From Malania oleifera (taxonomy: Eukaryota; Streptophyta; Magnoliopsida; Santalales; Ximeniaceae), in contig NC_080419.1 in NCBI RefSeq assembly GCF_029873635.1, positions 65,514,323 to 65,578,322 on the forward strand: DNA of 64,000 nucleotides, written 5' to 3'. The notes below the pieces were generated by a model that worked only from the letters and a program-made list of their open reading frames with translations, was not told where the DNA came from and ran no database searches. Below are positions 6,528-59,450 of the stretch, piece after piece. The translations under genes and the position numbers were made by a program. How positions within the stretch are numbered: position 1 is the stretch's first letter; every line of letters begins with the position of its first letter.

Positions 6528-6611
6528 TGTAGAGACCCAAAGAATTATAGAAATTATGTAAATAAAAGAAAGGAGAGAAAAGGATTTTTCAAAAGGGGAT
6601 TCAGCAAGGTC

Positions 6612-6806
6612 TCGTCGACGAGTGTAGAGTGCTCGTCGATGGACAGGTTTCTTGGGCTCATAGAAGTAGACGCGTGTCTCGTCGATGAGACATTATCAAG
6701 AGGGCTGATTTTAGGGCCTGAAACTCATCGACGAGGAGTAAGTGTTCATCGACGAACTCCCTTCATGGACTCGTCGACGAGGTGACGTGTCTCGTCGACG
6801 AATCCA
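6612..6806. repeat. TCGTCGACGA palindrome cluster in 3' LTR of A
   Basis: About eight exact or near copies of TCGTCGACGA lie between 6612 and 6806, ending just upstream of the TATA-like box at about 6810. The arrangement parallels the 5' LTR. Confidence 0.8.

Positions 6807-8416: not shown

Positions 8417-8419
<3 letters not shown>

Positions 8420-8450
<31 letters not shown>
8420..8450. repeat. (TA)n microsatellite
   Basis: About fifteen AT dinucleotides in the 3' LTR of element A. Confidence 0.95.
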
Positions 8451-8458
<8 letters not shown>

Positions 8459-8672
8459 ATGACAGATTTAGTAGTACTTTGATATGGTTTCTGGTGTTTT
8501 ATGACATGTATGTGATTTTATGTTTTCCGCTGCTTAGGTGTTAGAATTGTATGATAGGTATATCCCTGATACCCATGGGTCCAAGTTGATCACGACGATG
8601 ATAGCTTAGCAGGATCATTATGTATGTTATTATGTGGCAAAAAATATATGGAAAAATAGGCAAGTCATTACA

Positions 8673-14773: not shown

Positions 14774-16618
14774 TGTTGGCCTAACATGGCTTTTGAATCT
14801 TATTTTGATGATAACAAATAAAGGTAAATTTAACATGTTGTGGTTAAGTGATGATGTTTCAGGAAATCAAGTATATGAAGTTCAAAAATTCAAGTATCAT
14901 GAGTTCAAGATCACAAGTGTAATTAAATGTTCATACTCCAAACAACAAGTGATCAAAAGGAAGCTTAAAGGGAAAAAGACAGACAAACTTTATGAAAGCT
15001 TAAAGGATATTGAAGCTCAAGACAAAACGGACTCAAAGCAAAGATATAAAAGAAGACTTCAAGTTTAGAAAGTTTTAAAGTCTTAAGGAAGTCCTGTGTA
15101 AGTACTTCATTTAAATATCAAAATGAATGTTTTGAAGCTCATTAGGGTTATTCATGGACTTAGAGACCTTATTTTGAAAACCCTTGAAAATATCTTTCTA
15201 AAGTATCAAAACAAGTTGGCAAGAGTTTTTGGAAACAAAGTTTAAAAACAGTGTTTTAACTGTTCAGGTGACTAACCCTTGTCTGGTCAGGCGACAGATA
15301 ATTTTGCTGAATTAAATTTGGATGACAGTATAGGCTTAAGTGACTTACCCCTATGAGATTAGGCGACTGACCTTGTTTTGACCTTGAAATTACAATGTAT
15401 TTAAAGATCAAGGGATTGACCCCGATGAGTTCAGGCGACTGACCTTCGTAATGGCTAGTTTAAAACAACATTTAAATGTTTCCAAAATGAGTTGCTTGTG
15501 CCCCAAACTTTGTCAAAACTTGGGAAACACTCCAAGTAACTTGGGCAACACAAAAATATGACTTTTTAGCTTTATAAAAACATGATTTCTTAAATCAAAT
15601 TGAATACCATGAATTGAAAATCTAATTTCAAGCCTATATTTCTTATACTCTCTCAAAACCTTCTTGCACACATATACTTGTAGAGATTTTCTAAGAAATA
15701 CTGAGTTATTGTTCATCGATCTCTAAGCACAACTTTTGAGTTTTGAATCAATCAAAGAAAGATATCGGTTATATACTCTTTGAGCTTCAATTTTTTCATT
15801 GATATTTACATTGAAGTAATGATTAGTTGTGTTATATCTCGTACTAATATGCTCTATTTGAGAGTAATTCTTGTACGCAAGAAATTTTTCTTATTTTCTT
15901 GTATTCTTGATGGTTTAGAGTTGTTGAATCGTTGTACGGAGCATAGGGTATCACTTTGAGAGGAGGCCTCCAATCTATTGAAGGGGTGTTGTAATGGTTT
16001 GCTCCACCTGAAAAGGAGAGTTATAGTGGAATCCTTAGGTGGTGTGCCCAATGCAAGGACGTAGGCGGGTATAGCTTAACCTCGTAAAAACTCGGTTTCA
16101 CTCTCTTCCCTTGCTCTTTAATTTTCTACATATATAAATTGCATGGTTGCTTATTTAAGCATAGGAAACAAAACTGATATTGAGATTGAGAAAACTTTAA
16201 TTAAAGGGAGTACATTGATTAATCTTTTGTGGAAACCTTAAAGGGAGTACATTGATTAATTGTTTGCAGAAACCTTGATTATAGGAAGTGCATTGATCAA
16301 GGAACCTAATTGACAACAAAGATTGAATCTTCGAAGCACTGTTGTAATTCATATATTATTTAAGTAACTTGTGGATTGTGTTGATTTATTGATTGATTGG
16401 GTGTTGGTTTAAATTGCTACAAGATCAAGTTGATACACTTTCCAATTAAGATTTAAAAGTGAATGTGATTTTCCTATGAATATTGTAATTGAAATTCAAA
16501 ACCATCCTTGTGTGATTGCTAAGAATAAAATAAGTTGGGAAAAATTTATTAAAAGAATTCAAAAAAAAATTTATAAAACCAATTCAGCCCCCCTCTTGGG
16601 ACTACACCTTACTTTTCA
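14774..16618 (+). repeat. Copia LTR (element K)
   Basis: It starts TGTTGGCCTAACATGG and ends CTTACTTTTCA, followed by a primer-binding site. L at 26967 shares its beginning (TTTTGAATCTTATTTTGATG) and its middle. A TATA-like TTTATAAAAA lies at 15571, and the GGACGTAGGCGGG...CCTCGTAAAA block at 16057. The last part, a C-rich run before GGGACTACACC, resembles the E and F LTR ends. Confidence 0.85.
15262..15460. repeat. CAGGCGACTGACC motif cluster in K LTR
   Basis: Variants of CAGGCGACTGACC occur near 15265, 15287, 15360 and 15433, with a related GGGATTGACCCC near 15410. All lie upstream of the TATA-like box at 15571. Confidence 0.65.
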
Positions 16619-25869: not shown

Positions 25870-26966
25870 TCTAGGCGAATTAAAGAGAAAAGCCAAAAAT
25901 TTCACTAAGCAGTTGACCAGTCCACATGGATGGTCAACCGGCCTTCCCTCTATTCTAGCTATTGGCATCATCTTGTAAGCAGACCAGACCCTTTAGGCAA
26001 TCAGCTGCTTTGCCTAAAATTTGAATTTTTAAGTTGTCTTCATGTAATTGGTTTGAAATTCTAGACCAACCACTTGTCCCATTGATGCCACATATCAACC
26101 TTCGACATTTTTGGTTGGTAGTTATTTCTAGTTATTTTTCAATTTGAATTCTTGAAATTCAAATTCGAAAAGGGTTTTCCCTCCCTTCAATTGAAGGTAT
26201 ATAAAATGATCTCCTATGGGAGAGCTGAGGGCATGTCTAAGTGGGGGCAAAGTGAGGTTTTCAAGACCAATTTATGGGTTTCAAGAAGGTTTTATATTGA
26301 AGGAGAGAAAGAAGAGATTTGAAAGTCCTTCTCTTTTGCAAAGGGGCTTTGGGAGTGTGATTCTAAGTGAGGGGCCTTCCACTTGATCAACGGAGGTTTT
26401 TTCTTCAAAAATGTCAATTTCAAACCCTTTACATCATTCATTTCCATGCATGCGATTAATTTTGGAATGTTGAAGCATACATGTGTTTCTTTGATGTTAT
26501 GATTTATGTTTTATGATTTCCCTACTTTCCTATATCAAAATTACATGTTAGGAGTAGCAGGACATGTTTTTATCATAATCACTCAAGAAAAAGCATATTA
26601 GCATGTCAAAATTGCATGTGTATATTTGATCTATTTTGGATAATCAACTAGCCTATGCAGACAGTTGACCAACTTTTCTTCATTTTGAAATTGTAGTAGT
26701 TGGCTGTAGGTAGTTGACTAGCTTCTGCATGTTGTCAGTCGCCAATTCCCAAGAGTGCTCATTTTGTACTCTTTATTGATTTCTTTTGGGATTTCAAGTG
26801 TGTTATTGTCTTTACACATGGTAGAGCACTTTTGATTGATAGTGATTGATCTTTTCTTTAGATTTTTATGGTTTCCCAATAAAAAGTCACTTTCCATAAA
26901 AAACAAATGGGTTTACAAGAGTTTTCTTAAAAAACATCAATGATTTTTGTGAACTTTTAAAGTTAT
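25870..26966 (+). promoter_or_regulatory. LTR-like promoter region with motif cluster
   Basis: Near-palindromic GTTGACC/GGTCAAC motifs recur at about 25913, 25937 and 26077, and again at 26661 and 26717. A strong TATA box, TATATAAAA at 26198, follows the first cluster. This matches the layout of the E, F, K and L LTRs (motif cluster, then TATA), so it is probably a decayed copia LTR. I could not define its ends. Confidence 0.4.
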
Positions 26967-28741
26967 TGTTAGTTTAACAAGGTTTTGAATCTTATTTTGA
27001 TGATAACAAACGAAAGGAACTTTACATGTTTTGCTAAGATAAGTTTCAGGGCTCAAAAGTTTTCATGAAGAGATCAAGCTCAAAAGTTCTTTAAAAGATC
27101 AAGTTCCTAAAAGATCAAGCTCAAGTGTTTAAAGAAGATTACATATGATTAGAGACATGGCTCATGATAATGTAAAAGTCAATTGAAGGAAGAAGCTTAA
27201 GAATAAAAGCAAAAACATGAAGACTTAGTGATTAAAAAGTCTTAGTCTTTTAAGAAGTCTCATGTAAGTACTTCAAACGATTTCAATATGAATGCATGAA
27301 ACTCTTAGGTTAATTACTTGTACCTAGATATCTTTTCAAATACTTGGAAAATATTTTTATAAGGTCAAAACTTATTTCAAAAAGGTTAAAATTATTTTAG
27401 GAATGGAAAGCACCAAAACAGGATTCTCCAAATTCCCTTCTTTTTTTTCTACATCTACATTGATGAGCACCTTTATATATAAAAAAACTCCTTCTCTTAG
27501 CTTTCTTTTGATACCAAGATCATCTTATTTGGAGTTGTATAAGAAAAGTTATGACCAAAATACTGAAGGGTGGTTGGAGCTGACAGCACTTCAGGTGACT
27601 GATCAGTTGACTGACAAGCAGACAAAACATGCCCAGTCAACTGACCCCTGTGAGTCCAGGCAACTGAACCCATTCTAAATTTGATATTTCGCTGAAATTC
27701 AAAGTCCAGGTGATTGACCCCGAAAGTCCAATTGACTGATCTTCATAACTGTCAAATTTAAATAGTGTGGGAAGGTTTCCAAAAGTGTTTTTTTGGCCCC
27801 CAAACTTTGAAAAAACTTGGAGAATACTCAAAGCAACTTGAGGAATATGAAATACTACTTTTTTTTCTATCAAAGCAACTTGAGGAATATGAAATACTAC
27901 TTCTTTCTATCTATAAATAAATATTAAACCCAAGAATTAAACACAACAACAAAGATCAAATCAGCTATTGATCAAGTTCTTTCTCAATTAAAGCATTCTT
28001 GCTGAATATTTTCTGAAAGTTAAAGCTGAGTACTTGCTGATTTAAAGGCTCACGAGTCTTGTCCTCTACTTGAAATTTTCAATCTAAGAAAAAACCTGGT
28101 GATATACACTTGAGCTTCATCTTTCTATATTATTATTTTACTGAAGTATATTGGTTTTAAATTGTATTGATCAGCTCTGTTTTAAGAGTCTCTTTGTACA
28201 CAAGAATTGTTCTTTTTCTTATTGTTTTGACGGTTTAGGATTATTGAATCTTTGCATTGCCGAGTGTGGGGTATCGCTTCGAGAGGATGGCTCCATCCTA
28301 CATGAAGGAGTGTGTAAACAGTTTGCTCCACCCGATTAAAGGAGTGGTGTAGTGAAATCCTTGGGTGGTGTGCCTAAGGCAAGGACGTAGGCGGGTATAG
28401 TCGAACCTCGTAAAAATTTTGGTGTCACAGTCTTCTCTCTCTTTAAATTTTAGCACATATAAAACTACATGGATGCTTATTTAAATTGTTGGAAATTATT
28501 TTTTTGATTGAGAATTGCGAAAACCTTAAATAAAGGGGAGTAAGTTGATTGAATCTTGTGAAAACCTTCTAAGGGAGTACGTTCATTGTATAGGTCATTC
28601 ATCAGCTACAACTCAATATCAAAAGACTGAATCTTGGAAGCTTGGTGGAATTGTTATAGTATTCCATATTGTGAAGCTTATCTTGATTGATTGAATGGAC
28701 TTATTGAGTTTTGATTTGATTTACTATCAAACCTTATATGT
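26967..28741 (+). repeat. Truncated copia LTR related to K (element L)
   Basis: It starts TGTTAGTTTAACAAGG, then TTTTGAATCTTATTTTGATG as in K. It keeps a cluster of CAGGTGACTGA-type motifs (27588-27750), a TATA-like CTATAAATAAATA near 27910, and the GGACGTAGGCGGG...CCTCGTAAAA block near 28383. It is cut at 28741 by the start of element D, before the C-rich end seen in K. Confidence 0.8.
27588..27750. repeat. CAGGTGACTGA / GTCAACTGACC motif cluster in L
   Basis: Related motifs occur near 27592, 27604, 27637, 27657, 27708 and 27732, upstream of the TATA-like box. The consensus differs from K, although the LTRs are homologous. Confidence 0.65.
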
Positions 28742-31527: not shown

Positions 31528-33779
31528 TGCTAATTTAGGTGTAATCCCAAAAGGGGGGTGAATTGGGTATTTTCAAAAACCTTTACCACTTAATCCCTAT
31601 TTCTAAATTTAATAGATTGATAACTGAAGTATAAGACTGATTTAAATTATTACACCAATGAATTCTTTCCACCTAATTAATTTTTAAGTACGCATGGGGT
31701 TATTCAAAATACACATGCAAGATAAATATTTAAATGCGATGCGAAAAATAAAAAAGAGTAAAAGGAAGAGAGAAGGGAAACACAAATTTTACGAGGCTCA
31801 GCCAACCTGACCTACGACCTCGCCTTGAGCAACCCACTCAAGGATTCCACTGATTCTCTGCTCCTTTAATCGGGATAGAACTTCCCTTACATCCGTTACT
31901 TACAAAAGGCACAGCTTCCTCCTCACCTAGTTCACAACCCGAACCGTGATTACAATATAATATCAAATCTGTAAAAAAACTCAAGTTCGCTTCCAACAAA
32001 GTTAAGCAAGTATAATTGAAACCTAACACATATACATATGATGAAACTTGAAGCTCAGTATGTATGAAACGATACAATCGTTATATGAATGATATGCTTC
32101 AACCAATATCCCTTTTTCTTTCAAATCTCCCAAGTAATGATATAAGTAAAAGCTTTGGAGAAAATTAGGGTTCTAGTTCACTTTGTGAAAATGCACGAAT
32201 ATCAAATGTGAACATATCAAAAGCTTTGTCTTGAATATTATATCAATCAAAATCAAAAAGCTTTCTTTCAAATATTCAACCACAATACGATCTTTGTAAT
32301 ATGCAAATATATATAATCTAATTTCCAAAGATCAAAAAACTGAATATTATGTTTTCCAGAAAAAATCCCTCAATAAAATATATATAGTTATGAACACTAA
32401 GGATTTTTAATCAAGTGGTTTTAAGATATCAAAAATATTGAGCCTTTAACCAAAAAAAAAAAAAACACTTGAATCAAAACCATTTAACCAATGATGAAGC
32501 TTTTCTCAAGTATTGATCTTATCAAAATAATCTATAAGTAAGTACACTCAAGATCAATCACTAAGTTTATATTCAATAATAGATTTTGAGATGACAAGTT
32601 CTTTGAAAACTAAATATCAACATGTAAATCAGTTTATATGAAGAACTCTGTGTGACTGAAGATTAACAAGTAGTTTGATTTACCAAACCTCAATATCAAA
32701 ATGCTTGCACAGTAATCACAAGAAAACCTTTTGAAGATCAAAGTAGCTTTAGCTCAGATGTGTAGTATAAGATTTGAAATCCCAATCACAACCTCAATAG
32801 TATGATCTCCTAAGCTGTGCTAATATGCTTAATCGTATGCCAAAGGTTTGATTTTCTTCTTCTTGTGGTTGTTTCTTATTGTTCTTCTTGTTCTTGTTGA
32901 TCTTAGATCAGGCACTAGGGTTTAGATGTTCATTATATAGGTGGTACCTTGCCCTTAGAATGAATCTTAACCGTTGGATCAAAAAATAATTCGGTAGTTC
33001 TCTCATTAAAAATTAAAATTTTAAAGTTTCCCAACGGTTCAGATGACTAAGGGTTAAGGCTCAGACGATTGAAGTTCCTTAGAGCTTTGAAAAAAATTAA
33101 CTTGGACATAGGGTCAGCAACCGAGATTTGGGTTCAGTCTTCCGAAGTGTCATGTTTAGACGACTGAAGTCCGAGTTCAGTCTTCTGATGTGCTTCTGCC
33201 AAGTTATATGTTTCACCAATAATTCTTCATACAATTGAACTTAATTTTTGATCTTTTGAAGAAATTCTTCAGATGACTGAACTTAACTTCGATCTCCTGA
33301 AGCTGAATCTTTAGATGACTGAACATTGAGTCGGTCTTCTAAACTAACCAACTTTTGGATTTTCCCTTTTAATTTGAAAAATTTTATTTTGCACTTTTGT
33401 AAAATATTTTTCGGGGTTTTAACAATATCTCTAAGTCCATAAATATCCCGTAAAGATGTTCATGAGATGCATGAGTCCTAAAGTCAGTCTAGGGTATATG
33501 TTTAGCCTCAAATTAAATCATATGAAATATGTAAATACATTCAGTTCTAAATACTCATTCCCATGACGCTCTTGAACTTGCCGCATGCATCTTCATTCTT
33601 CAACTCTTTTTGTTCCATGGAGTTTGCAAAGATGTATATACTTTAGTCTTCATGGCTTCAATGACTTTCTATCCTTCCGTGCATGCTAAATATTGTTCAT
33701 ATTCACAATCTCAATGTACAAATCAAATACCAAGTGATTTTGTCATTATCAAAACCGGATTGGACCCATAGAGTCAACA
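31528..33779 (-). repeat. 3' LTR of element E
   Basis: On the minus strand it starts TGTTGACTCTATGGG at 33779 and ends TTTGGGATTACACCTAAATTAGCA at 31528 (given as a boundary only). It is 2252 bp and aligns with 39000-41231 along its length. A TATA-like CTATATAATG lies near 32930-32941 (minus). Confidence 0.9.
33040..33345. repeat. TTCAGACGACTGAA motif cluster in 3' LTR of E
   Basis: Near-palindromic variants of TTCAGACGACTGAA (or its complement) recur about every 20-35 bp near 33047, 33062, 33135, 33155, 33174, 33270 and 33313. They lie upstream, on the minus strand, of the TATA-like box. Confidence 0.7.
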
Positions 33780-33797
33780 ATCTCCCCCTTTTTGATG
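33780..33797 (-). other. Polypurine tract of element E
   Basis: On the minus strand, CATCAAAAAGGGGGAGAT directly precedes the 3' LTR start. Confidence 0.85.
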
Positions 33798-34229
33798 ATG
33801 ACAAATACACGAGCAAAAATATAGATTGGGTTATGCCTAACAAGGCTCCCCCTCAAATAATGCATCAAATATTCAGCAAGTGAAATATGCTCATGCCAAA
33901 TGAAATATGGTCATGCTCATACACAATTAGTTTTACCTATCCTTATTTTTGCTATCGCCTGATCTCCTCCTTGCTAATGCAAAAAGTTGTGTTATTGAAT
34001 GTAAATTGCAATATGAACATACACAGTGTGTCAATTTTCATATATTACTAAGGTTCAAAGATTACGTGATGATGAATATGTTCAAGTCAATATGCTCTTA
34101 TCATGGTGTGAAAAAATGTGATGCCAAATGAGAACAAATGAACTTAATATGAAATTTTTGTCTATTGTGAATATTAAGTGACGTTGCTCCCCCTGGATTA
34201 TATCATCTAATATAATTCTAGGCAACCTC

Positions 34230-34600
34230 TCAACTATGCATTAGGCCTAATTCATGCCTAATTTGGATAAACCTATCCTCCGTAAATGGTTTCGTGAACA
34301 TTTTTGCCCATTGTTCATCAGTACATACAAACTCAAGCGTTACATCTCCCTTTTGCACATGATCACGAAGAAAATGATGTCTTATTTCTATATGTTTAGT
34401 TCGTGAATGTAGTATGAGATTCTTTGAGATGTTTATTACACTCATATTGTCACATCTTATAGGTATTGTGTCATATATTAATCCAAAATATGTTAGTTAT
34501 TGCTTCATGTATAGTGTTTAAGCACAACAACTTCTTGCCGCTACATATTCTGCCTCAGCTGCGGAAAAAGCTACTGAATTTTGCTTCTTGGAAAACCAAG
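34230..34600 (-). pseudogene. Element E RNase H remnant
   Basis: The frame at 34445-34230 reads INISKNLILHSRTKHIEIRHH, then FVCTDEQWAKMFTKPFTEDRF. This is the C-terminal half of copia RNase H and the end of the polyprotein. The N-terminal half (SYSDTD, then a shifted frame for [15 protein letters not shown] and SWFSKKQNS) lies at the end of the RT frame, so a frameshift divides the domain near 34680. Confidence 0.85.
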
Positions 34601-35968
34601 AGACAAGCGAATGTCCCAAGAAATGACATGTACCACTCGTGCTCTTCCTATCCACTTTGCTACTAGCAAATCAGTATCTGAATAGCTGATAATCTCAAAA
34701 GATGTATAATTTGGATACCATAATCCAAGTTCCATGGTTCTCAACAGGTATCTAAGTATTCGTTTGACAGCTAACAAGTGTGACTCTTTTGGTGCAGCCT
34801 GAAATCTTGCGCACAAACATACGCTAAACATTATGTCAGGTCGGCTGGTAGTTAGATATAGTAAGCTACCGATCATTCCATGATAGAGCTTGACATCTAC
34901 TGGTATACCTTGTTCATCTTTGTCTAACTTCAAAGAAGAGCTCATAAGTGTTCCAAGTATTTTTCCATCTTCCATATTAAACTTTTTGAGCAAATCTCTA
35001 ATATACTTCGATTGATTTATAAAAATTCCATGTTTAGCTTGTTTTATCTGAAGTTCTAGGAAGAAATTTAGTTCACCCATCATGCTCATCTCAAATTCAT
35101 TTTGCATAGTATTAGCAAACTCATTGCACAAGTCTTTATTTGTAGCTCCAAATATGATGTCATCTACGTATACTTGAACTAAGAGCATGTCATCTTTCTT
35201 AGACTTGATGAAAAGTGTTGTGTCTATCCTTTCTCTGAAAAATCCATTGTCCAATAAAAAGCCACTTAATCTCTCATACCAAGCTCTAGGAGCTTTCTCT
35301 AAGCCGTACAAGGCTTTTGGTAGCCTATAAACGTGATCTGGATTCTTGTGGTTTTCAAAGCCTGGGGATTGTTCTACATATACCTCTTCACTTATGTAGC
35401 CATTTAAAAATGCACTTTTGACATCCATTTGATACAACTTGAAATCCTTCAAAGTAGCATATGCTAAAAGCAATTGAATGGCTTCCATTCTAGCTACAGG
35501 TCCAAAGGTTTCTTCAAAATCTATTCCTTCTTCCTGGTTATATCCCTGAGCCACTAGTCTTGCCTTATTTCTAACAACTATTCCATGTTCATCTTTCTTG
35601 TTCTTATATATCCATTTTGTTCCAATGATTATCTTATCCTTAGGTCTAGGATCTAATGTCCATACTTTATTTCTCTCAAACAGATTTAACTCTTCTTGCT
35701 TGGACATCACCCACAATTCATCCTCAATTGTTTCACTCACAGTCTTAGGTTTTTCTTGAGAGAGAAAGGAAAAATGACTAATTATATTCCTAAGTGAGGA
35801 TCGAGTGGCTACACTATGTAATGGTTCACCTGTTATTTGATCAATGGGATGATTCTTTATGTACTTCCACTCTCTAGGTAGTTCATTAACCTCATTTTCA
35901 ATTTGAGTAGTTTCAGCCGATGGTCCCTTAATTTCATTTTTCTTTCCTGAATCATTTTTAATGGACAT
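34571..35968 (-). pseudogene. Element E reverse transcriptase (long open frame)
   Basis: This is an open frame of 465 residues and the best-preserved pol piece in the window. Motifs in order: [16 protein letters not shown] linker, [85 protein letters not shown], then [12 protein letters not shown] with the catalytic Asp pair, [17 protein letters not shown], and [15 protein letters not shown]. These match SIRE-type copia RT. The end of the frame is shifted relative to RNase H. Upstream, the integrase frame is broken, so the polyprotein is not continuous. Confidence 0.92.
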
Positions 35969-35999
35969 TTTTTCAAATTCCTTATTTATCTCTATATCA

Positions 36000-36960
36000 T
36001 CTTCATCAGGCCTTTTTTAGAAAGGATTTGACTCATTGAACACTACATGAATGGATTCTATGACATTTAATGTTCATTTAATATATACTCTATAGGCTTT
36101 ACTATCTAAGGCAAACCCTAGGAAGATACCTTCATCTGATTTCACATCAAACTTTCCTAGATGTTCATTGTCTCTAAGCACAACGCATTACTAGCCAAAG
36201 ACATGAAAATATGATACATTTGGTCTATGACCATTCCTTAATTCATATGGAGTCTTATTAAGAGATGGTATAATTAAAACTCTATTTAGAACATAGCAGG
36301 CGGTATTTACTGCCTCAGCCCAAAAATACTTAGGTAATTTATGTTCGTTAAGCATGGTTCTGGCCATTTCTTGTATAGTCTTATTTTTCCTTTCAACTAC
36401 ACCATTCTACCGTGGTGTTCTAGGAGCCGAAAAATTATGATCTATTCTTAACGAATTGTAGTAGTCTACCATGCTTTGATTTTTAAATTCTCTACCCCTA
36501 TCACTTCAGATTTTAGTGACAGTATAACCCTTTTCATTTTGAATTTTCTTACATAGATTTATGAATTGTTCACACGCTTCATTTTGTGACCTAAAAATAG
36601 AACCCATGTATATCTTGAATAATCGTCAACTATAACAAATGCGTATGATTTTCCCCCTAAACTCTGAATAGGGTTTGGACCAAATAAAATTAAGTGTAGC
36701 ATTTGTAGTGGCCTAGTAGTAGAGATTACTTTCTTCTTCTTAAAGCTCATTCTTGCTTGTTTTCCTAGTTGGCACGCATCACATATTTTATCTTTCATGA
36801 ATTTAGTCTTAGGCAATCTCTTAACTAATTCATCCTTAACAAGTTTAGATACTAAATCCATGTTTGCATGTCCTAGTCTCCTATGCCAAATCCAACTAAT
36901 CTCATTTATGGCGGAGAAACAAGTAACATGTTGAGATGCAAGGTTATCAAGGCTAGTGAT
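36000..36960 (-). pseudogene. Element E integrase remnant
   Basis: The clearest piece (36861-36559) reads MDLVSKLVKDELVKRLP, ICDACQLGKQARMSFKKKK, then LHLILFGPNPIQSLGGKSYAFVIVDDYSRYTWVLF. It contains the zinc-binding CDAC and the first core strands; the catalytic D of the usual H-L-D-L-F-GP is changed to I here. Downstream to about 36000 the core (APRTPxxNGVVERKN equivalent) and an ELRNGHRPNVSYFHVF-type segment are recognisable but broken. Confidence 0.8.
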
Positions 36961-37330
36961 GTATACATTTTCATGACGATCAGCAGTAAATAATATTTTA
37001 TTTTCATATTTGTTCTCTATAGTGCATTTTTCATGTTCAAATGAGACTTTATAAACTTTATCGCATAATTAACTTATACTCAATAAGTTATGTTTCAATC
37101 CCTCTACTAAAAGCACATTATCAATGACAAGTAAATGTTCCTTACTAACTTTACTAACTCCAATGATTTTACCTTTAGAGTTATCCCCAAATGTAACGAA
37201 TCCTTCATCTTTGGATATAATCGACGTGAATTTTGCTTTATCTCTTGTCATGTGTCATGAGCATCCGCTATCCATATACCACTTGTCCTTCGAGGAGAAC
37301 AATCTCAAGCACATCTGCAGGGCATAATCA
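36961..37330 (-). pseudogene. Element E protease and pre-integrase remnant
   Basis: The piece at 37251-37069 reads MTRDKAKFTSIISKDEGFVTFGDNSKGKIIGVSKV, then VLLVEGLKHNLLSIS, the copia protease region. Just upstream (about 37290-37250) the WYMDSGCS-type active site is damaged. Element F has the same region with DSGCSRHM intact. Confidence 0.8.
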
Positions 37331-37387
37331 GATAATTACTTTTGGTACTCAGATTTTCTTAGGTCCATGGGGGTTAGTGCTAGATTC

Positions 37388-38944
37388 TCATTTGACTTTC
37401 CAGACTTTCTTAATTTTGACATATTTATTTTTGAAAGGACAGTCAAATTTTATGTGATCCAACCTTTTGCAATTAAAACATGTAATATTTTTATGATAGT
37501 CTTTAGTTGGAACATACAATTTTGACTCTCTTAAAAAATGTCTTATGTAAAGATGTTTCCATTTTAGGTTATCCTTCCCATTAAAACCAAGACCTTCCTT
37601 CTCTAGGGAATTTCTTTGAGCTCCTAGGAGTTTTTCAAAATTATTTTGGCCCTCAATAAATTTACAAATAATTTGAGTTTTATCTTTCAAATTCTTTTCT
37701 AACTCCTCAATTTTCAAATCCTTGTCTTTCATGAGGGATACATGAGATTCATTTTGATGTTCAACTAACTTTGAAAATTCTTTCAATTTTAATTTCAAAT
37801 TAGATTTTTTTTTATTCATTTTCTCAAGCATTTTAAGGGTGTACAAATATTCCTGATGCAATTCATCATACGAAAGCATGCTATTTTCATTTTCTGAATC
37901 ACTTGAATAGTAAGATGAAACAGAACAAAAAGATTGTACCCCGTGGTCCTCGTGTGCCATCAGACATAGATTCACCATCTCATCATTACCGGATTCAGAT
38001 TCTGAACTACTGGTGTTGTGCGTGTCCCAATCCACTTTTAGAGCCTTCTTCTTCTTCTTCTTAGACCCTTTCTTCAGTTGGGGACAATCCGGCTTGATGT
38101 GTCCGAATTCTTTACAATCATAACACATGGGAGGGTCATCTTTTTGCTTCCTCCTACTTGACTCTCCCCTTTCTTCTTTTGAGCCCTTGAATTTTCTAGT
38201 GTATTTCTTGTTCTTTCTCATAAACTCTCCAAATCTCTTGGTGATTAGTGCCATGTCATCCTCTTATTTTGAGTCACTTCCCTCACTAGAGCAATGAGAT
38301 GGTGCCTTAAGTGCTATGGCTTTCTTTACTTTGCTTTACTCATTTTTCCTCTCAATTATTGCAAGCTTATAGGTGATTGGCGATCCAATTAGTTCGTCAA
38401 CCGACATCTCCTTGAGATTTCTCCCTTCCGCTATTGCAGTAGCTTTAGCTTCCCAAATTAGAGGTAGTCCCTTGTGATGTGCGTGAATCTACTGTACATG
38501 GATTGAATAAATTCATCAGCAGTTTCTAAATGCTTCATACTCACTAGTGAGCATGTCTATCCTACTATCCTTTACTTCCTTAGTGCCTTCATATGTAACT
38601 TCTAACTTTTCCCATATTTCTTTAGCAGTGTTACATGCCATTACCCTATTAAACTCATTTACATATTGTGCACAGAATAACCGATTTATTGCAATAGCAT
38701 TTATTTGCAGAGATTTCTAGTCCTCTTCAGTATACTCATCTTCAGTTTTGGGTATATTAACCTCATAACCTACTTTCATAGGGACATGGTTTCCCTTGGA
38801 AACAATTTTTCACACTTTCCAATCCACATTTAAAAGATATATGTTCATCCTACATTTCCAATAGGTGCAATTTACACCGCAAAAAATAGGTGGTCTAGTG
38901 GACGAGTGTCCCTCACCGAATGGAGTTACATTGATGTGTGCCAT
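37388..38944 (-). pseudogene. Element E gag
   Basis: It starts at ATG 38944 (MAHINVTPFGEGHSSTRPP). The capsid region is broken by several stops to about 38260. The rest is one frame of 288 residues: a basic segment, zinc knuckle CYDCKEFGHIKPDC, an acidic Ser-rich region, a long coiled coil (KKKSNLKLKLKEFSKLVE, then KDLKIEELEKNLKDK), and a second knuckle CFNCKRLDHIKFDC. The paired knuckles and coiled coil are characteristic of SIRE-type gags. Element F carries the same protein. Confidence 0.88.
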
Positions 38945-38983
38945 GTGATCTTTTTACAAATGAACTGTTAAGTCTATGTAAAC

Positions 38984-38998
38984 CCGCTCTAATACCAA
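38984..38998 (-). other. Primer-binding site of element E
   Basis: On the minus strand, TTGGTATTAGAGCGG follows the 5' LTR end. It is one base from the Met-tRNA-type TGGTATCAGAGC. Confidence 0.8.
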
Positions 38999-39778
38999 AT
39001 GTTAATTTAGGTATAATCCCCAAGAGGGGGGGTGAATTGGGTATGTTAAAAAACCTTTACCACTTAATCCCTATTTCTAAATTTAATAGATTGATAGCTG
39101 AAGTATAAAAATGATTTAAATTATTACACCAATGATTTCTTTCCACCCAATTAATTTTCAAGAAAGTGTGGGGTTATTCAACATACACACGCAAGATAGA
39201 TATTTAAATGCGATGCAAAAAATAATAAGAGTAAAGGAAGAGAGAAGGCAAACAAGATTTTACAAGGTTTAGCCAACCCGGCCTACGTCCTCGCCTTGAG
39301 CAACCTACTCAAGGACTCCACTAATTCCCTGCTCCTCTAAACAGGATGGAGCCTTCCTTACATCCACTACTTACAAGAGGCACAACTTCCTCTTCACTCG
39401 ATTCACAACCCAAATCGTGATTGCAATATAATATCAAATCTGCAAAACAACTCAAGATTCACCTCTAACAAAGCTAAGTGAGTACAATTGAAACCTAACA
39501 CATATACATATGATGAAACTTGAAGTTCAGTATGTATGAAACAATACAATCGTTATATGAATGAAATGCTTCAACCAATATCCCTTTTTCTTTCAAATAT
39601 CCCAAGTAATAGTATAAGTAAAAGTTTTGGAGAAAATTAGGGTTCTAGTTCACTTTGTAAAAATGCACGAATATCAAATGTGAACTTATCAAAAGCTTTG
39701 TCTTGAATATTATATCGATCAAAATCAAAAAGCTTTCTTTCAAATATTCAACAACAATACGATCTTTGTAATATGCAA

Positions 39779-39799
39779 ATATATATATATATATATATA
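39779..39799. repeat. (TA)n microsatellite
   Basis: About ten TA units in the 5' LTR of E. Confidence 0.95.
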
Positions 39800-40509
39800 A
39801 TTTGATTTCCAGAGATCAAAAAACTAAATATAATGTTTTCTAGAAAATATCCCTCAATAAAATATATAGTTATGAACACTAAGGATTTTTAATCAAGTGG
39901 TTTTAAGATATCAAAAATATTGAGCCTTTAACCAAAAAAAAAACTCTTGAATAAAAATTGTTTAACTAATGACGAAAACTTTTCTCAAGTATTGATCTTA
40001 TCTAAATAATCTATAAGTACACTCAAGATCAATCACTCAGTTTATATTCAATAATAGATTTTGAGATGAAAAGTTCTTTGAAAACTAAATATCAACAAGT
40101 AAATCAGTTTATATGAAGAACTCCATGAGACTGAAGATTAACAAGTAGTTTGATTTACCAAACCTCAATATCAAAATGCTTGCACAGTAATCACAAGAAA
40201 ACCTTTTGAAGATCAAATTAGCTTTTGCTCAGATGTGTAGTATAAGATTTGAAATCCCAATCACAACCTAAGTAGTGTTATCTCCCAAGCTGTGCTAATA
40301 TGCTCAATCATATGCCAAAGGTTTGATTTTCTTCTTCTTGTGGTTGTTTCTTATCATTCTTCTTGTTCTTGTTGATCTTAGATCGGGCACTAGGGTTTAG
40401 ATGTTCATTATATTGGTACCTTGCCCTTAGAATGAATTTTAACCATTGAATCAAAAAATAATTCGCGAGTTTTCTCATTAAAAATTAAAATTTTAAACTT
40501 TCCCATCGG

Positions 40510-40795
40510 TTCAGAGGACTAAGGATTAAGGCTCAAATGACTGAAGTTCCTTACAGTTTTGATAAAAATTTACCTGGACACAGGGTCAGATGACCGAGAT
40601 TTGGGTTCAGTCTTCCAAAGTGTCGGGTTCAGACGACTGAAATCTGAGTTCAATCTTCTGATGTGCTTCAGACGACAAAACTTAATCTTTGATCTTCTAA
40701 AGAAATTCTTCAAACGACTGAACTTAACTTCGGTCTTCTAAAACTAAATCTTCAGATGACTGAACGTTGAGTTCAATCTTCTGAAGTGACCAACT
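40510..40795. repeat. TTCAGACGACTGAA motif cluster in 5' LTR of E
   Basis: Copies near 40509, 40538, 40606, 40629, 40671, 40712, 40753 and 40776 mirror the cluster in the 3' LTR. Confidence 0.7.
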
Positions 40796-41231
40796 TCTGG
40801 ATTTTCCTTTTTAATTTGAAAATTTTTCTTTTGCACTCTTTATTTGTACTTTTGTAAAATAGTTTTCGGGGTTTTAACAATATCTCTAAGTGCATAAATA
40901 TCCCCTAAAGATGTTCATGAGAGGCATGAGTCCTAAAGTCAATCTAGGGTATATGTTAAGCGTCAAATTAAATCATATGAAATATTTAAATACATTCAGT
41001 TAATACCCATTCCCATGACGCTCTTGATCTTGCCGCTTGCATCTTCATTCTTCAACTCTTTTAGTTCCATGGAGTTTTACCAAGATGTATATACTTTAGT
41101 CTTCATGGCTTCCATGAATTTCTATCCTTCCGTGCATGCTAAATATTGTTCATGTTCACAATCTCAATGCACAGATCAAATACCAAGTGATATGTCATTA
41201 TCAAAATCGGATTGGACTCATAGAGTCAACA

Positions 41232-42090
41232 CTTTCACATTGAGGACAATGTTCTACTTTAGTTGGGGGGGGGTGAGCATTTGTGTGTGACACTATACAC
41301 GTATACTTGTTGGGTTTTACATTAATTTGAGAAATAAAAATAAAAATAAAATCAAAAAATCAAAAAATAAAAAAAAAATCAAAGAAAGAAAGAAAGAAAG
41401 AGCATTGGGGATAAACGATTATGCCATTATTAACACTAACTTATAACTTTCAAATACTTGTATATAACCTAAGAATTACACACTTGAGTCATTTATGTGT
41501 AGTTTCTCTTTATATGATTTTGTAACTCCATGAGAAATTGATTGGTAGTACACTCATGTTAATCTGGCTATATAATCTTTTGTATTTATACGACATCTCA
41601 CGAGGCTGAATAAACGCATTCATGTGATTCATTGCACTTAGGATTCCTTGTGACAATTAAGAGAACACTCGTGGCGACTATGACACCTTATGAGATATCC
41701 TTAAGCTATTTATCGTTTTTTTGAGTGTTAACATCAAATCATAGTTCACGAAACTTAGTTCTCTTTTCTTTTGGACGATTCTTTGTACACTAGTCTCTGT
41801 TTTTTATTTGCTAGGTTAAAGGTGACATCTAGTGGAGAGATAGAAACCTAAGTCTTGTAGCCTACTCAAGATGTGAAGGCTGAACCACCCCTAGAAATAT
41901 ACTTAGTTCATGAACTATTGTTCGAGCTTAATTCCCATTGATGGTATGAAGACAACAAAAGAAGTATAATGATTGTCCTAATTGACCAAGAAAAGACAGA
42001 AATGGAAAAATGAGCAGAAGAAAGAATAAGAAAAATAGAATTGCACATGAATGAAGTGGAACGTTAATACCTGCTCCACAAAAATACCAC
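41232..42090 (+). mobile_element. Element D, right part (untranslated tail)
   Basis: It begins CTTTCACATTGAGGACAATG and follows the tail of element B (19672-20475) in order, including ACTTTAGTTGGGGGG and the late block GGTGACATCTAGTGGAGAGA. It ends at 42090, where the LTR of element F starts. The rest of the tail and D's 3' LTR are missing from the window. It has no gene. Confidence 0.85.
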
Positions 42091-42448
42091 CGTTGACTCT
42101 ATAAGTCCAATCATATTTTGATAATGACAAATCACTTGGTATTTGATCTGTACATTGAGATTGTGAATAGGAATATTATTTAGCATGCATGAAAGGTGAA
42201 TGAGTCATGAAATCCATGAGGAGAAAAGCATATACACCTGACACAACCCATGGAACTAAAAGCGAAGAAGGATGAAGGAACAAGGTTCTAGTTGAAGACT
42301 TTAAAGGGAATTGGTATCTAGATTTAATGTATTTTAATGTCATATGATATATTTTGAAGCTCAATTACATCTTCGAATGACCTTAGGACTCATGCATTTC
42401 ATCAAATATTTATTTGAAATAGTTTTAAGTTTTCGAGGCAAATTATTA

Positions 42449-42650
42449 GAGGCCTCGTCGATGAACCCCTTCGTCTCGTCGACGAACATATGAAGTCCAC
42501 TCAGCGACGAACACATTGTCTCGTCGACCAGAAAATACCGAGAGCACTAAATTTAAGACAAGGCTCTCGTCTACAAACTCATAGCCTCGTCGACGAACGA
42601 GTGTTATACACTCGTCGATGAACTTACCCACTCGTCGACGAATGTCGGGA
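42449..42650. repeat. TCGTCGACGA palindrome cluster in F LTR
   Basis: Exact or near copies of TCGTCGACGA occur near 42455, 42476, 42518, 42586, 42614 and 42633, with partial copies between. The TATA box is about 100 bp further on. The motif is the one in gypsy elements A and J. Confidence 0.8.
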
Positions 42651-42968
42651 TGCTGAACGTAGTTTTAGCGCAGACACGAATGAAAAATTGAGTTTTTAAT
42701 AGATCCAACGGTCAGGATTCATCCTAGGGCCAAGAACACATATAAATATACTTTCTAAACCCTAAAGACACAAGGAGACACACATTAGAGAGACTAATCT
42801 AGTGATATTGTACAAAGTGAGCCTCCACTCAAAAATTTTGCCAATACTCTATTGCGTTCATACTCTTTGGGCAAATCAACTCAGCTTTTCAAAGGGATTT
42901 AAATCTACACATCTTGCAAGAGATCCTTGGTGATTGAGGTTTGATAAACTAGTGATTGTTTGTGGCAT

Positions 42969-42970
<2 letters not shown>

Positions 42971-43002
<32 letters not shown>
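42971..43002. repeat. (TA)n microsatellite
   Basis: About sixteen TA units followed by GTATATGTATATG repeats to about 43020. Confidence 0.95.
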
Positions 43003-43008
<6 letters not shown>

Positions 43009-44068
43009 GTATATGTATATTTCAAAGATTCTCTATCTTTCTTACTCATATATCTACTATTTTTGTTGACAAGCAAAATTCGTGGGTTATTACTTGATAA
43101 GTTTTATTTGAGAATGGACTTTTGCTAAAAGGTTGAATATTTGTGATATTCAAGGTTATATTTTCATTTAAAGATTTGATATTTGGTTACTGCGAAAACT
43201 ATTTGTTTGAAAATTCTCAGAGTGTCTAAATACATATTCTTGAGGAATATCTTTCAAATATAGAGTTTAAGTCTTTGGAATATTTAAAATCATATTTTTA
43301 TTCAAAGATTTAATCTTGCAAAATATTTGATAGCAAGAATGTAGATCCACATATTATTCTAGTTTATTTTAAAAGGATCTCGTTTTATATTCTTGCTTAA
43401 AGTATTTGAAAATCAAACCCTAAGTTCTCCAAAGCATTTATTTGTAAAAATTACTTTTTGGGAGATATTGAATAAAGGGTAGATTTTTGAAGCATTTCAT
43501 TCTTAATATAAAGATCATATTGGTACATACACATTGAACTTCAAGCATTTATCATATGATTATGTGTTAGGATTTATCTTTTACTCACTAGCTTTGTGTA
43601 GAAGCATTTTAGTTTTTGCAGAAATTGTAATTCCATTTTGTATACATGGTTCGGGTTGTGAACCGGAATTGAGGAGGAAGCTACGCCTTTTGTAAGCAGC
43701 AGGTTGTAAGGGAAGCTCTGTCCCAGTTAAAGGAGCAGATTATTTAGTGGAATCCTTGAGTGGGTTACTCAAGGCGAGGACGTAGACTAGGCTAGGCCGA
43801 ACCTCGTAAAATTGAGTTTGCATCTCTTTTACCCTTACCTCTATTTAAATTCCGTGTAATCATATTGTGTATGTATTGATCAATTGGTGAATGATCGAAT
43901 AATTGGGTAATATTGTATGCTTGATAAAGACACATATAAAATTACACATTGGGTTGATTAATTTAAATATTTGATAAAGGTAGTAATTAGTAGCTTGGAG
44001 CTTTGTAATTGATTGTTTTCAAAATTGGAACCTAAAGGACTTTTTTTTTTTTTAAATACTCAATTCAC

Positions 44069-44082
44069 CCCCCCCCCCCCCA
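44069..44082. repeat. Poly-C run at LTR end
   Basis: An uninterrupted C run inside the C-rich block that precedes GGGATTATACC. E, K and F all have C or G runs here, but this one is the longest. Confidence 0.9.
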
Positions 44083-44109
44083 CCCCTTGGGATTATACCA
44101 TAATTTACA

Positions 44110-47060: not shown

Positions 47061-47099
47061 GCCTATAGGTCATATAATAAATGAACTTTAACTATTGCA

Positions 47100-47711
47100 A
47101 AATCTATCCATGTCGTATTTGACGAGTCAAATCCTTTCTCCAAAAAGACTGATGAGGATGAAATTGAGATAAATAATGGAATTGAAAAATTATCCATTGA
47201 AGATAATTCAGATAAGAGAAATAAAATTAAAGAAACATCTTTTGAAGATAATCAAGTTGAAAATGCGGTTAATGAATCATCTAAAGAATGGAAGTACATA
47301 AAGAATCACCCCGTAGATCAAATCATAGGTGAACCATCACGTGGAGTAACCACTCGATCCTCACTTAGAAATAAGGTTAGTCATTTTGCATTCCTATCTC
47401 AAGAAGAACCTAAGAATGTGAGTGATGCAATAAAGAATGAATCTTGGGTGATGTACATGCAAGAAAAGTTAAATCAGTTTGAGAGAAATAAAGTTTGGAC
47501 ATTAGTTCCTAGACCTGAGGATAAATCAATTATTGGAACGAAATGGATATTTAAGAACAAGAAAGATGAACATAGGATAGTGGTTAGAAATAAGGCAAGA
47601 CTAGTAGCTCAAGGATATAATCAAGAAGAAGGAATTGACTTTGAGGAAACCTTTGCACTTGTAGCTAGAATGGGAGCCATTCTAGCTACTTTTAAGGATT
47701 TCAACTTCTAC
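47100..47711 (+). pseudogene. Element F RT, N-terminal part, truncated
   Basis: The linker ([26 protein letters not shown]) runs in frame into an open frame at 47418-47711: [56 protein letters not shown] small deletion follows ([13 protein letters not shown], where E has [18 protein letters not shown]). The RT ends after KDFNFYT and the catalytic motif is absent. The rest of the open frame is antisense sequence of element G. Confidence 0.85.
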
Positions 47712-47995
47712 ACAAGAGCATTGAACTCCTTGAACTTGTCGAACACCTTTGACTTCCTTTTCAGGAAGTAGATCCAAGTCTTCTTGCTGTAATCATCAGT
47801 GAAGGTGAGGCAGTATCGGTTCTGTCCATTTGAAAATGGGCTCAATGGACCACACATGTCTATATGTACTAGCTGGAGCGGCATGGTAGATCTACAGTCG
47901 GCTTGCTTTCCAAAGTCGTTTCTATGTTGCTTGCTCAGAAGACAGCTTTCACATATCACATTTGGGTGGTGGATGTTGGGTGAGCCTTTTATCAT
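47712..47995 (-). pseudogene. Element G integrase, N-terminal part
   Basis: This is an open frame of 95 residues: NVICESCLLSKQHRNDFGKQA gives the zinc-binding [43 protein letters not shown] covers the first catalytic Asp (HIDMCGP) and DDYS, then VFDKFKEF. It ends at the junction before the rest of the core. Upstream, 48000-48110 holds the HRRMGHL-type region with stops. Confidence 0.85.
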
Positions 47996-49574: not shown

Positions 49575-50133
49575 AACTGTGTTTAGAAGGTAAAAAAACC
49601 TTAAGAATCGGTTTTAGATTGCAAAGAACCAGTTTAAAAATAACTAAACCGGCTAAAGGAAGTTCTGGACCATTTTTTTTAAAGGGTTCAACTTAACGAA
49701 GATAACAGCGTCAGCATTACCATTAGGGCCACGTGGTGGCTTCTGCGCATGCTGCGTGTCGGCGACTTGACACGACTCAGTTAGCCGGGTTAGGTTGTGT
49801 TCGCGAGTCATGATCTAGGTTGCTAGGCTGGGTCGCTGATCGGGTTTTTGAGTCGAATCTCACTTACTGGGCGAGGAAGACGCATGTGAGCATGTGGAGC
49901 GCGTGATCTCGGTGGTCAGTGACGTTGAAGATGCTGTTTCATCTCTTGGCATGTGAGAGCGCGTGTGGGGTCCTCCGAATTCCATTTGAAGCATGGTCTT
50001 CACCTTTGCAATCGTCTCAACGCGAATTTCACAATGGTATGCTCAATTTTGGATATTGAGTAACTTCATATTTGGGCAAAAAATCGAATTTCCCTCTGTT
50101 CGCCTCTGTTTAGAGAATTCCAAAAAACCTGAA
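49575..50133 (-). other. Element G untranslated leader
   Basis: About 560 bp between primer-binding site and gag ATG. No gene seen. Confidence 0.6.
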
Positions 50134-50827: not shown

Positions 50828-51377
50828 TGTTGTGTAGAGTGGCCTGAATGCTAATGCATAGCGGAAAACAACAAATCGAATCGAAACAAGTAATGCAAGC
50901 AACTAACGATGAATATACGGAACAACCAATCACAATGAGAATAAAGGAAAACAATAAAATCAAAGACACAATAATTTATGTGGTTTGACAAGTACCTACA
51001 TCGACGGGAGCAAGCGGCTAATTTTCACAATCAAATTGTCAAGCTTACATCAAGGGTTATAAATATAATTTATATATCAATTCTATACATATAGGAGGCT
51101 TAGACTATATCTAAAACACTCTCGTAGCAATCCTAGAGGAAAATTCTCCAAAATCTTCTAATATACTAATCTCCCAATTCAAAATCTGTGACCTACGCCG
51201 AACAATACCATTGATGGTTTAATACTGAGCCCCAATAATGAAGACTAAAATCGTTGACAATTTGATACCGAGAGCCAACCGTCGACGATTTTTTCCTGCA
51301 TCCTCCTTCCTTGTTCTTTGCTTCACTGTGTTTTCCTAACACATGTGTTCCACTCAAATTGAGCCACATATCCAACA
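50828..51377 (-). repeat. 5' LTR of element H
   Basis: On the minus strand it ends CTCTACACAACA at 50828. I place the start at TGTTGGATATG (51377) because its first bases are the inverted match of that end. The inner end is secure. The outer end is an inference. Confidence 0.6.
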
Positions 51378-52158: not shown

Positions 52159-52679
52159 TGTCATGAGCTAAGCATGTTCAGGGCATTATGCTTGCCTGTG
52201 ACCGCTTATCTCTTGTGCTTAGGATGAGTTTCCATCATGTAAATACTAGTGTAGGGTTATTCTCTGCTAGTAGAGTCTCTGTAAGCCAAATAAGGCAATA
52301 TGACTCCTTGGTCATTTTGATGTTTCCTAGTGCCAGAATGATAATTACATAAAAACCTCTTTAGGGGAGGGTGAGTGTTCATCAATCATTGTAAAACTCA
52401 CTAGCAATTGTCAACGTGCTTAGCCTACTTGCCTTCCTCGCTAAGTACAACATGTCAATGGAGGATTTGTTAATGAATTACGTTTGCTTCAATGTTTACT
52501 GCTTGCTTACCACGACTTTCATGAAGTGATTACTGTTTCCACTGCTATCTGAATGAATGTTAATGAAAGTGCTTTGTGGATGAATGTTGATAAACGATAG
52601 GCTAGCTAGTTAAGCAAAAGTGCTTTAATTAGCGCCGCACGGCCCTTCACAACAGTGTGAAAAGAGTCGGACCGTGACA
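52159..52679 (+). repeat. 5' LTR of element I
   Basis: TGTCATGAGCTAAGC to GACCGTGACA, 521 bp. My hand alignment with the 3' LTR finds about 40 differences, mostly transitions, so roughly 8 percent divergence. Confidence 0.92.
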
Positions 52680-55876: not shown

Positions 55877-56394
55877 TGTCACGAGTTAAGCTTGGTCAGG
55901 GCATTATGCTTGCCTTGACCGCTTATCTCGTGTGCTTAGGATGGGTTTCCTTCATGTAAATACTAGTGTAGGTATTTTCTGCTAGTAAAGTCTTTGTAAG
56001 CCAAATAAGGTAGTATGACTCCTCGGTCACTTTGATGTTTCCTAGTGCCAGGATGATAATTACATAAAAACCTCTTTAGGGGAGGGTGAGTGTTCATCAG
56101 TCATTGTAAAACTCACTAGCAATTGTCAATGTGCTTAGCCTACTTGCCTCCCTCGCTAAGTACAACATGTCAATGAAAGATTTGTTAATGAATTACATTT
56201 GCTTCAATGTTTACTGCTTGCTTGCCACGGCTTTCATGAATTGATTACTGTTTCCATTGCTATCTGAATGAATGTTAATGAAAGTGCTTTGTGGATGAAT
56301 ATTGGTAAACGATAGGCTGGCTAGTTAAGCAAGAGTGCTTTAGCTAGTGTCGTACGACCCTTCACAATGGTGTGAAAATAGTTGGACCATGACA
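55877..56394 (+). repeat. 3' LTR of element I, next to the XTH leader
   Basis: TGTCACGAGTTAAGC to GACCATGACA, 518 bp. Its last six bases are ATGACA, which gives an ATG at 56389 in frame with the XTH reading frame. Its position 94 bp before the XTH ATG means any promoter activity of this LTR would run into XTH. Confidence 0.92.
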
Positions 56395-59165: not shown

Positions 59166-59209
59166 TGTAGAGACCCAAACTCGTAATAGGCTAGGTTCAT
59201 TGGCGAAGG

Positions 59210-59345
59210 AGTCATGTTCGTCGACGAAGTCCTTTAGAGCCTCGTCGACGAAATTCAGAGTGTCGTCGATGAGGAGATACCAAGCGGGTCAGAGAAATAT
59301 CTGGAATTGGGCTCGGCAATGAAGCAATGGCTTCATCAACGAGTT
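59210..59345. repeat. TCGTCGACGA palindrome cluster in J LTR
   Basis: Exact or near copies lie near 59219, 59242, 59264, and degenerate ones near 59312 and 59333, 45-180 bp from the LTR start, as in element A. Confidence 0.75.
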
Positions 59346-59450
59346 ATGTGGCGGATTTTTCAACGAAGACGCCACCACTTTGACGAGTTTGACTCGGTCA
59401 AAGGCTCTATCAATATCCATTTCAGTTTCTTAGAAGCTAAGTTTCTCCCA

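Follow-up and report, generated by a model that had tools for sequence, protein, structure and literature searches.

Two neighbouring LTR retrotransposons in the genome of Malania oleifera, here called E and F, carry different clusters of short palindromic motifs at the same place in their LTRs. What are these clusters, and are they private to each element family? A preliminary description had proposed a position-conserved, fast-turnover module, perhaps an array of transcription-factor sites, perhaps an RNA or DNA structure. Here we study the whole stretch of DNA around the two elements (64,000 nucleotides, hereafter the window) together with the genome it comes from.

Two related LTRs and the block that does not align

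E is a complete Ty1/copia element on the minus strand (31528-41231), with LTRs at 41231-39000 and 33779-31528 that are 88.4% identical and both flanked by GAAAG. F is represented by one Ty1/copia LTR on the plus strand (42091-44109), recognised by its alignment with E, with an RVT_2 domain downstream; neither a second F LTR nor the F 3' end was found within the 64-kb window. The piece between the two elements (41232-42090), which lies inside the interval first described, is a fragment of another element. RVT_2 is located at 34574-36016 in E and at 47085-47768 in F, so both have a Ty1/copia polymerase, and the reverse transcriptase of E has plant copia relatives.

Both elements are Sirevirus-like. 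In Sireviruses the PPT AGGGGGAG begins 10 bases before the 3' LTR, with more copies upstream (PMC2829016). This arrangement is found in E, the element whose 3' end lies in the window; there the LTR starts at 33779 and minus-strand copies lie at 33789, 33853 and 34194. The Sirevirus PBS TATCAGAGC is matched in E with one mismatch at 38994 and was not found in F at up to one mismatch. The polyC-rich integrase signal at the LTR end, searched with our own rendering of the published wording, is present in E (39037 and 31563) and in F (44063).

When the F LTR is aligned with the E 5' LTR (E5) and identity is read in 60-column blocks, it is 65-92% across the LTR start (F 42091-42426), falls to 32-54% with many gaps across approximately 42427-42689, and returns to 76% and 71% at 42690-42762, which covers the GATCCAACGG stretch and the TATA box. 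Further downstream it is 45-54% (42763-43130), mostly 58-83% (43131-43858) and 40-51% (43859-44033), with 72% and 81% at the extreme LTR end. The two LTRs are thus alignable at the start, just before and at the TATA box, and at the end, as had been claimed, and the two segments do occupy homologous positions: flanks shared on both sides enclose a block that does not align and that holds unrelated motif arrays. The TATA box of F (TATAAATA, 42741-42748, plus strand) was read in the sequence and aligned with E.

In E the block holds TTCAGTCGTCTGAA-type sites whose orientation alternates and whose distances are mostly 18-22 bp, located by site search and copy alignment on the minus strand at 40505-40800 in the 5' LTR and at 33030-33350 in the 3' LTR. 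Two further plus-strand arrays belong with it. K (15264-15442) has TCAGGCGACTGA-type pairs 23 bp apart with a period of 72 bp, although two of its six paired sites are weak, no better than background matches. L (27591-27739, from the site search) is of the class of K, with gaps of 12, 30, 23, 50 and 22, and every copy is in one of the TG and CA forms expected from CAGGCGACTG, the motif of K, and from CAGTCGACTG. From its letters, L reads as a K-type motif after CpG decay.

The three arrays had been given separate motifs. This is not borne out: in a motif scan E, K and L all appear to fall into one class, TCAG-N4-CTGA. Since they share these arms and L appears to be a deaminated K, there are fewer motif families than first stated. 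Part of the supposed fast turnover, namely the difference between K and L, looks like CpG deamination. An unassigned region that had been listed as a further array (25870-26206) holds only two near-matches (25911 and 25932) and is not counted.

An eight-site comb in copia and gypsy LTRs

The F array is of another kind. Eight TCGTCGACGA-like sites of 12 bases lie on the plus strand at 42454-42642, starting at 42454, 42475, 42500, 42520, 42566, 42586, 42611 and 42631, that is with gaps of 21, 25, 20, 46, 20, 25 and 20. An exact central box, ATACCGAGAG, found by box search at 42535-42544 (plus strand), follows site 4 after 3 bases, and the TATA box lies 98 bases beyond the last site. The motifs had been described as repeated every 20-40 bp. 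They are indeed arrayed, but the F-type spacing is rigid, with eight sites at about 21-25-20-46-20-25-20 bp and the box at its fixed place.

The same arrays are found on the plus strand in the LTRs of two other elements, A and N. The site search located seven F-type sites in the left LTR of A (A5, 624-793; gaps 21, 24, 21, 46, 21, 25) and eight in the right LTR (A3, 6611-6802; gaps 21, 25, 21, 46, 21, 25, 21), the latter with a box TTATCAAGAG (3 mismatches) at 6693 and TATAAATA at 6812. N has eight (59196-59387; gaps 21, 24, 21, 50, 20, 24, 20) and a box ATACCAAGCG (2 mismatches) at 59277. To within 1 bp, F, A and N have the same eight-site series, except at the centre of N. RVT_1 and protease domains identify A and N as Ty3/gypsy elements; A has RNase H in addition, and N has gag. 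Of the domains of a chromovirus, A carries RVP_2, RVT_1, RNase H and SH3_Tf2-1, and its chromodomain match (Chromo; E 0.0052, 17.1 bits) is below the cut-off of 25.1. In the LTR region of A (74-541, 543-1835 and 6528-8672) another incomplete LTR copy stands immediately in front of the left LTR, which itself is missing a portion that the right LTR has.

To what extent could such arrays arise by chance? TCGTCGACGA occurs in the window 10 times exactly (three in F, two in A5, three in A3 and two in N) and 18 times at up to one mismatch; in 200 dinucleotide shuffles the means are 0.005 (maximum 1) and 0.25 (maximum 3), respectively. With a tolerance of 1 bp, F scores 83 of 96 on the gap template of A, a value reached by none of 300 free, none of 300 jittered and four of 300 permuted templates. 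N scores 68 of 96, reached by none, two and 21 of 300. Without tolerance neither F nor N fits the template of A significantly (for F, 105 of 300 free templates reach the score). F also has the highest CpG count in the window, 25 per 250 bases with an observed/expected ratio of 1.84 versus 0.51 window-wide; E is outside the top 30 of the windows counted.

The motif of F is therefore not private to its family, and the supposed homogenisation within each element family finds no support: motif, spacing and central box are common to F and to the unrelated gypsy LTRs of A and N. A module that copia and gypsy elements share with fixed spacing points to a constraint on architecture, probably set by a host protein. 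It is quite likely, we believe, that copia and gypsy retrotransposons of this one plant genome make use of a single composite cassette, a rigid 20/24/20/46/20/24/20 comb of eight palindromes around a central ATACCGAGAG box, either through movement of the U3 module between copia and gypsy or because one host protein assembly forces the same architecture on them.

The sharing also bears on the idea that the sites are targets of an anti-silencing protein encoded by the element itself, by analogy with VANC and the VANDAL transposons. VANC targets are arrays of short motifs diversified between families, like here (PMC5735166, PMC10398659), and the VANC6 motif is reported in an unrelated element as well (PMC5735166). 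However, as these sources present it, VANDAL is a DNA transposon whose motif sits in dynamic tandem repeats and is bound by the element's own protein, while the module in this genome is common to copia and gypsy elements with different proteins, among which no additional shared gene was noticed. An element-encoded factor is accordingly quite improbable.

Three other places in the window were noted. At 51185-51290 (plus strand) an exact ATACCGAGAG (51265) is found beside a one-mismatch TCGTCGACGA (51279), outside every recognised LTR. Direct repeats of 0.5 kb at 52159-52679 and 55877-56394, 91.7% identical, surround gag and integrase remnants, and 49601-49950 is CpG-rich with up to 19 CpG per 250 bases; both lack an F-type site at up to one mismatch.

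The arrays across the genome and within families

The genome (1.494 Gb, 510 contigs) holds 25,387 exact pairs of TCGTCGACGA sites separated by 4-34 bases, and a site plus the box 3,584 times (1,828 + 1,756); the reversed controls gave 0 in both searches. Together with the shuffles of the window, these reversed-sequence controls lead us to reject chance as the origin of the arrays. Among the matches listed, the distance from site to box is identical at all but one place.

Forty loci were sampled. The first sample has 20 distinct arrays from the first 1.4 Mb of contig C1 (27 loci were returned, and seven repeats of the same array were dropped), some of which may pair up as the LTRs of a single element. 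The second has 20 loci with the exact site-and-box combination, hand-picked from the matches listed at 3-43 Mb of C1. Taken together they contain 177 gaps of 12-44 bp: 116 at 19-21, 55 at 24-25, four at 44 and two others, so that 171 of 177 are either 19-21 or 24-25. In a constrained-gap fit of the first sample 16 of 20 arrays score 83-93 of 96 and the other four 70-78, to be compared with 56 for the best of 50 mononucleotide shuffles. The central spacer contains the box ATACCGAGAG at up to 3 mismatches in 17 of these 20 arrays (exactly in five), in 15 of the 17 at 3 bases after site 4.

By LTR similarity, array included, 14 arrays of the first sample group with A, five with N and one stands alone; the loci of the second sample fall into 9 clusters when grouped at 75% identity over 250 bases. 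Protein matches within 1.5 kb of the first-sample arrays are to gypsy in ten, to copia in two and absent in eight, and for 28 loci of the F family the numbers are five copia, one gypsy and 22 without a match, a thin context because most loci are short. In the second sample, read on the strand that the box defines, nine loci have a TATA-like box 7-8 bases beyond the last site and four have one 10-20 bases beyond it; in the other seven none was found. The TATA box of F, 98 bases away, differs in this from the sampled loci that have it close by.

Four loci (L179, L188, L191 and L196) represent a third type of LTR, in which site and box are the same but the box is preceded by two sites. An LTR-end signature was found in L179 only, and protein tests on the four gave no match; perhaps this is a short non-Sirevirus copia element. 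In IMG/VR, a search with the RT protein gave pattern matches, but tblastn found no relative, and the site-pair query returned 100 stretches, nearly all with at least 40% GC, which we take for unrelated coding DNA.

Within families the arrays are kept. From 1,511 first-look candidates for F, 40 were scored and 28 loci aligned; six of the seven spacer lengths are retained in at least 27 of them and the remaining one in 26. For E, 39 of 40 scored copies cover at least 278 of the 301 query bases and one covers 248, and 20 further copies of these 40, aligned with E5 and E3, keep their own array and spacer lengths. This retention is partly by construction, because the array was the query and copies without it would be missed. 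With this reservation, the comparison supports the proposal that the array has a conserved position upstream of the TATA box, is retained within a family and differs between E and F.

In the site columns of the 28 F loci, 20.8% of the cells at CpG differ from the majority, versus 4.8% at other C/G and 1.8% at A/T, a pattern as would be expected of methylated, silenced copies. Conservation of the non-CpG site columns is not significantly higher than that of the spacer columns within the F family (p 0.12 and 0.26).

Next, we compared 24 fitted arrays: 28 of the 40 sampled loci entered, of which 21 reached the fit threshold of 82, and these were joined by A3, N and F (copy L103). F is 80% identical to the other 23 in the sites and 85% in the box, values that are inflated because sites were placed by consensus fit and orientation by the box. 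In the short spacers, which were not fitted, the identity is 27-28%; in the right-hand end of the centre it is 26%, and in the flanks 26-35%. Among themselves the other 23, with the same inflation of the first two values, are 77% identical in the sites, 75% in the box, 41% in the short spacers, 48% in the right-hand end of the centre and 38-45% in the flanks. Between F and the other arrays the sites and the box are alike, while the spacers are at background.

This pattern, spacers unrelated in sequence and nearly fixed in length, is unlike homogenisation of tandem repeats. Neutral tandem-repeat growth without function would be in line with the array of E, which has a two-site period of about 42 bases and partly similar spacers. 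As an account of the arrays it is very improbable: in the F type sites and gap lengths are kept across families and spacer sequence is not.

How the copia element F came by the module is evenly balanced between two origins. Recombination or template switching in U3 may have brought it whole into F from the LTR of a gypsy element, or F may have evolved it independently under the same host factor. A transfer would agree with the replacement of one block within otherwise alignable E and F LTRs, with the other motif class in E, K and L, and with the site, gap series, box, box distance and orientation that F shares with the gypsy arrays. The F centre (32 bases) further resembles that of A, a similarity reached by 0 and 1 of 500 shuffles; however, it is less pronounced when a different F copy and scoring are used (p 0.06 and 0.15 against A, 0.02 against N). 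The six short F spacers show no convincing likeness to any array compared, which makes a recent transfer from any of the sampled families less likely, and no donor family was found in this small sample.

A candidate host-factor module

An array of transcription-factor sites stays the best reading of these blocks, although no known plant factor was matched to them; a literature text search for CGTCGACG with binding-motif terms gave no usable match. We favour, with moderate confidence, a promoter-proximal cis-regulatory module in U3 that is used by both superfamilies and would combine sites of a dimeric host factor with those of a second factor. Binding, dimerisation, activation and the host origin of the factor are here what we infer from the arrangement of the letters. 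Each palindrome would be a candidate site for a host protein that binds DNA as a homodimer. Neighbours at a spacing of about two helical turns (20-21 bp) would form pairs, and pairs with 24-25 bp between them would form tetrads, set for cooperative binding. Two such tetrads flank the box ATACCGAGAG, the putative site of the second factor, and the assembly, standing upstream of the TATA box where one was found, may recruit the transcription machinery. E, K and L would carry the same kind of module with the other motif class.

Alternatively, the palindromes could act as RNA or DNA hairpins and as small-RNA hotspots. Plant small RNAs are similar in length to the gaps of 20-21 and 24-25, perhaps by coincidence. 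Relative to dinucleotide shuffles the folding z-scores are low for F (-4.2), A3 (-3.2), N (-3.8), E5 (-3.7) and E3 (-2.6), but weak for A5 (-1.6), L (-1.3) and K (0.15). When the sites are kept and only the spacers are shuffled, most of the folding is reproduced (F -1.3, A3 0.16, N -2.1), so it is mostly due to the sites themselves; RNA structure is rejected as the main signal, and the structural half of the preliminary description gains little. In maize, palindromes in LTRs are small-RNA mapping hotspots (PMC5311732). A box on one strand at a fixed distance, and a spacing that is kept regardless of spacer sequence, are better explained by protein binding, and we regard the hairpin reading as unlikely. 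Like an element-encoded factor and neutral growth, it ranks below binding by a host factor.

This kind of module is already known. Sirevirus LTRs contain repeated-motif (RM) boxes (Bousios et al. 2010), palindromes present in at least 8 copies that lie ahead of the TATA box within the first half of the LTR, differ between elements and often form CpG islands (PMC2829016). That source treats them as a Sirevirus trait with no established function and no binding factor found to be common to them, and as Sirevirus-specific in a comparison made within Ty1/copia (PMC2829016). The arrays of F (8 sites) and E (about 10-11 near-palindromic sites) are likewise palindromic and upstream of the TATA box, and the Vitis RM CGGTCGACCG and the Tnd-1 RM ACAATCGATTGT likewise have TCGA at their centre. 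The RM core CGG-CCG, present in all RMs listed in that source except that of Tnd-1, is absent from both TCGTCGACGA of F and TTCAGTCGTCTGAA of E. F-type arrays are further not confined to Sireviruses, being found in the Ty3/gypsy elements A and N, and neither a fixed comb spacing nor a central box is seen in the available RM description (PMC2829016).

Related observations exist for other LTRs. Palindrome-rich cis-regions of maize Sirevirus LTRs are, as here, the variable part of the regulatory LTR, and were reported there as small-RNA hotspots (Bousios et al. 2016, via PMC5311732). The LTRs of Del (Ty3/gypsy) have 5' CpG islands in monocot groups and none in eudicot groups (Cruz et al. 2014; PMC4029996); this variable, CpG-rich first half of a gypsy LTR is similar to what is seen here, and the available text of that study mentions no motif comb.

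Text searches of the literature, with subscription papers mostly outside their scope, found the RM boxes and no report of the F motif, of its spacing or of a module shared by copia and gypsy. As far as these searches tell, the motif without a CGG-CCG core, the rigid comb spacing, the central box and the sharing with gypsy LTRs are new. That unrelated retrotransposon families have the same rigid palindrome array by their promoters suggests one common host DNA-binding protein. The comb is a precise probe for finding this putative protein, and it allows a direct test of module exchange between LTR promoters of different superfamilies. Given the 25,387 exact site pairs of this genome, such a factor would meet a very large retrotransposon load.

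Two observations concern other plant promoter elements. The core of the W-box is TTGAC, and a W-box reading of F and E was rejected, their motifs being without it. The pattern YCYAACGGYYA, the mitosis-specific activator element, occurs exactly at only two places in the window, 42704-42714 (plus strand) and 32968-32978 (minus strand), before the TATA boxes of F and of the E 3' LTR.
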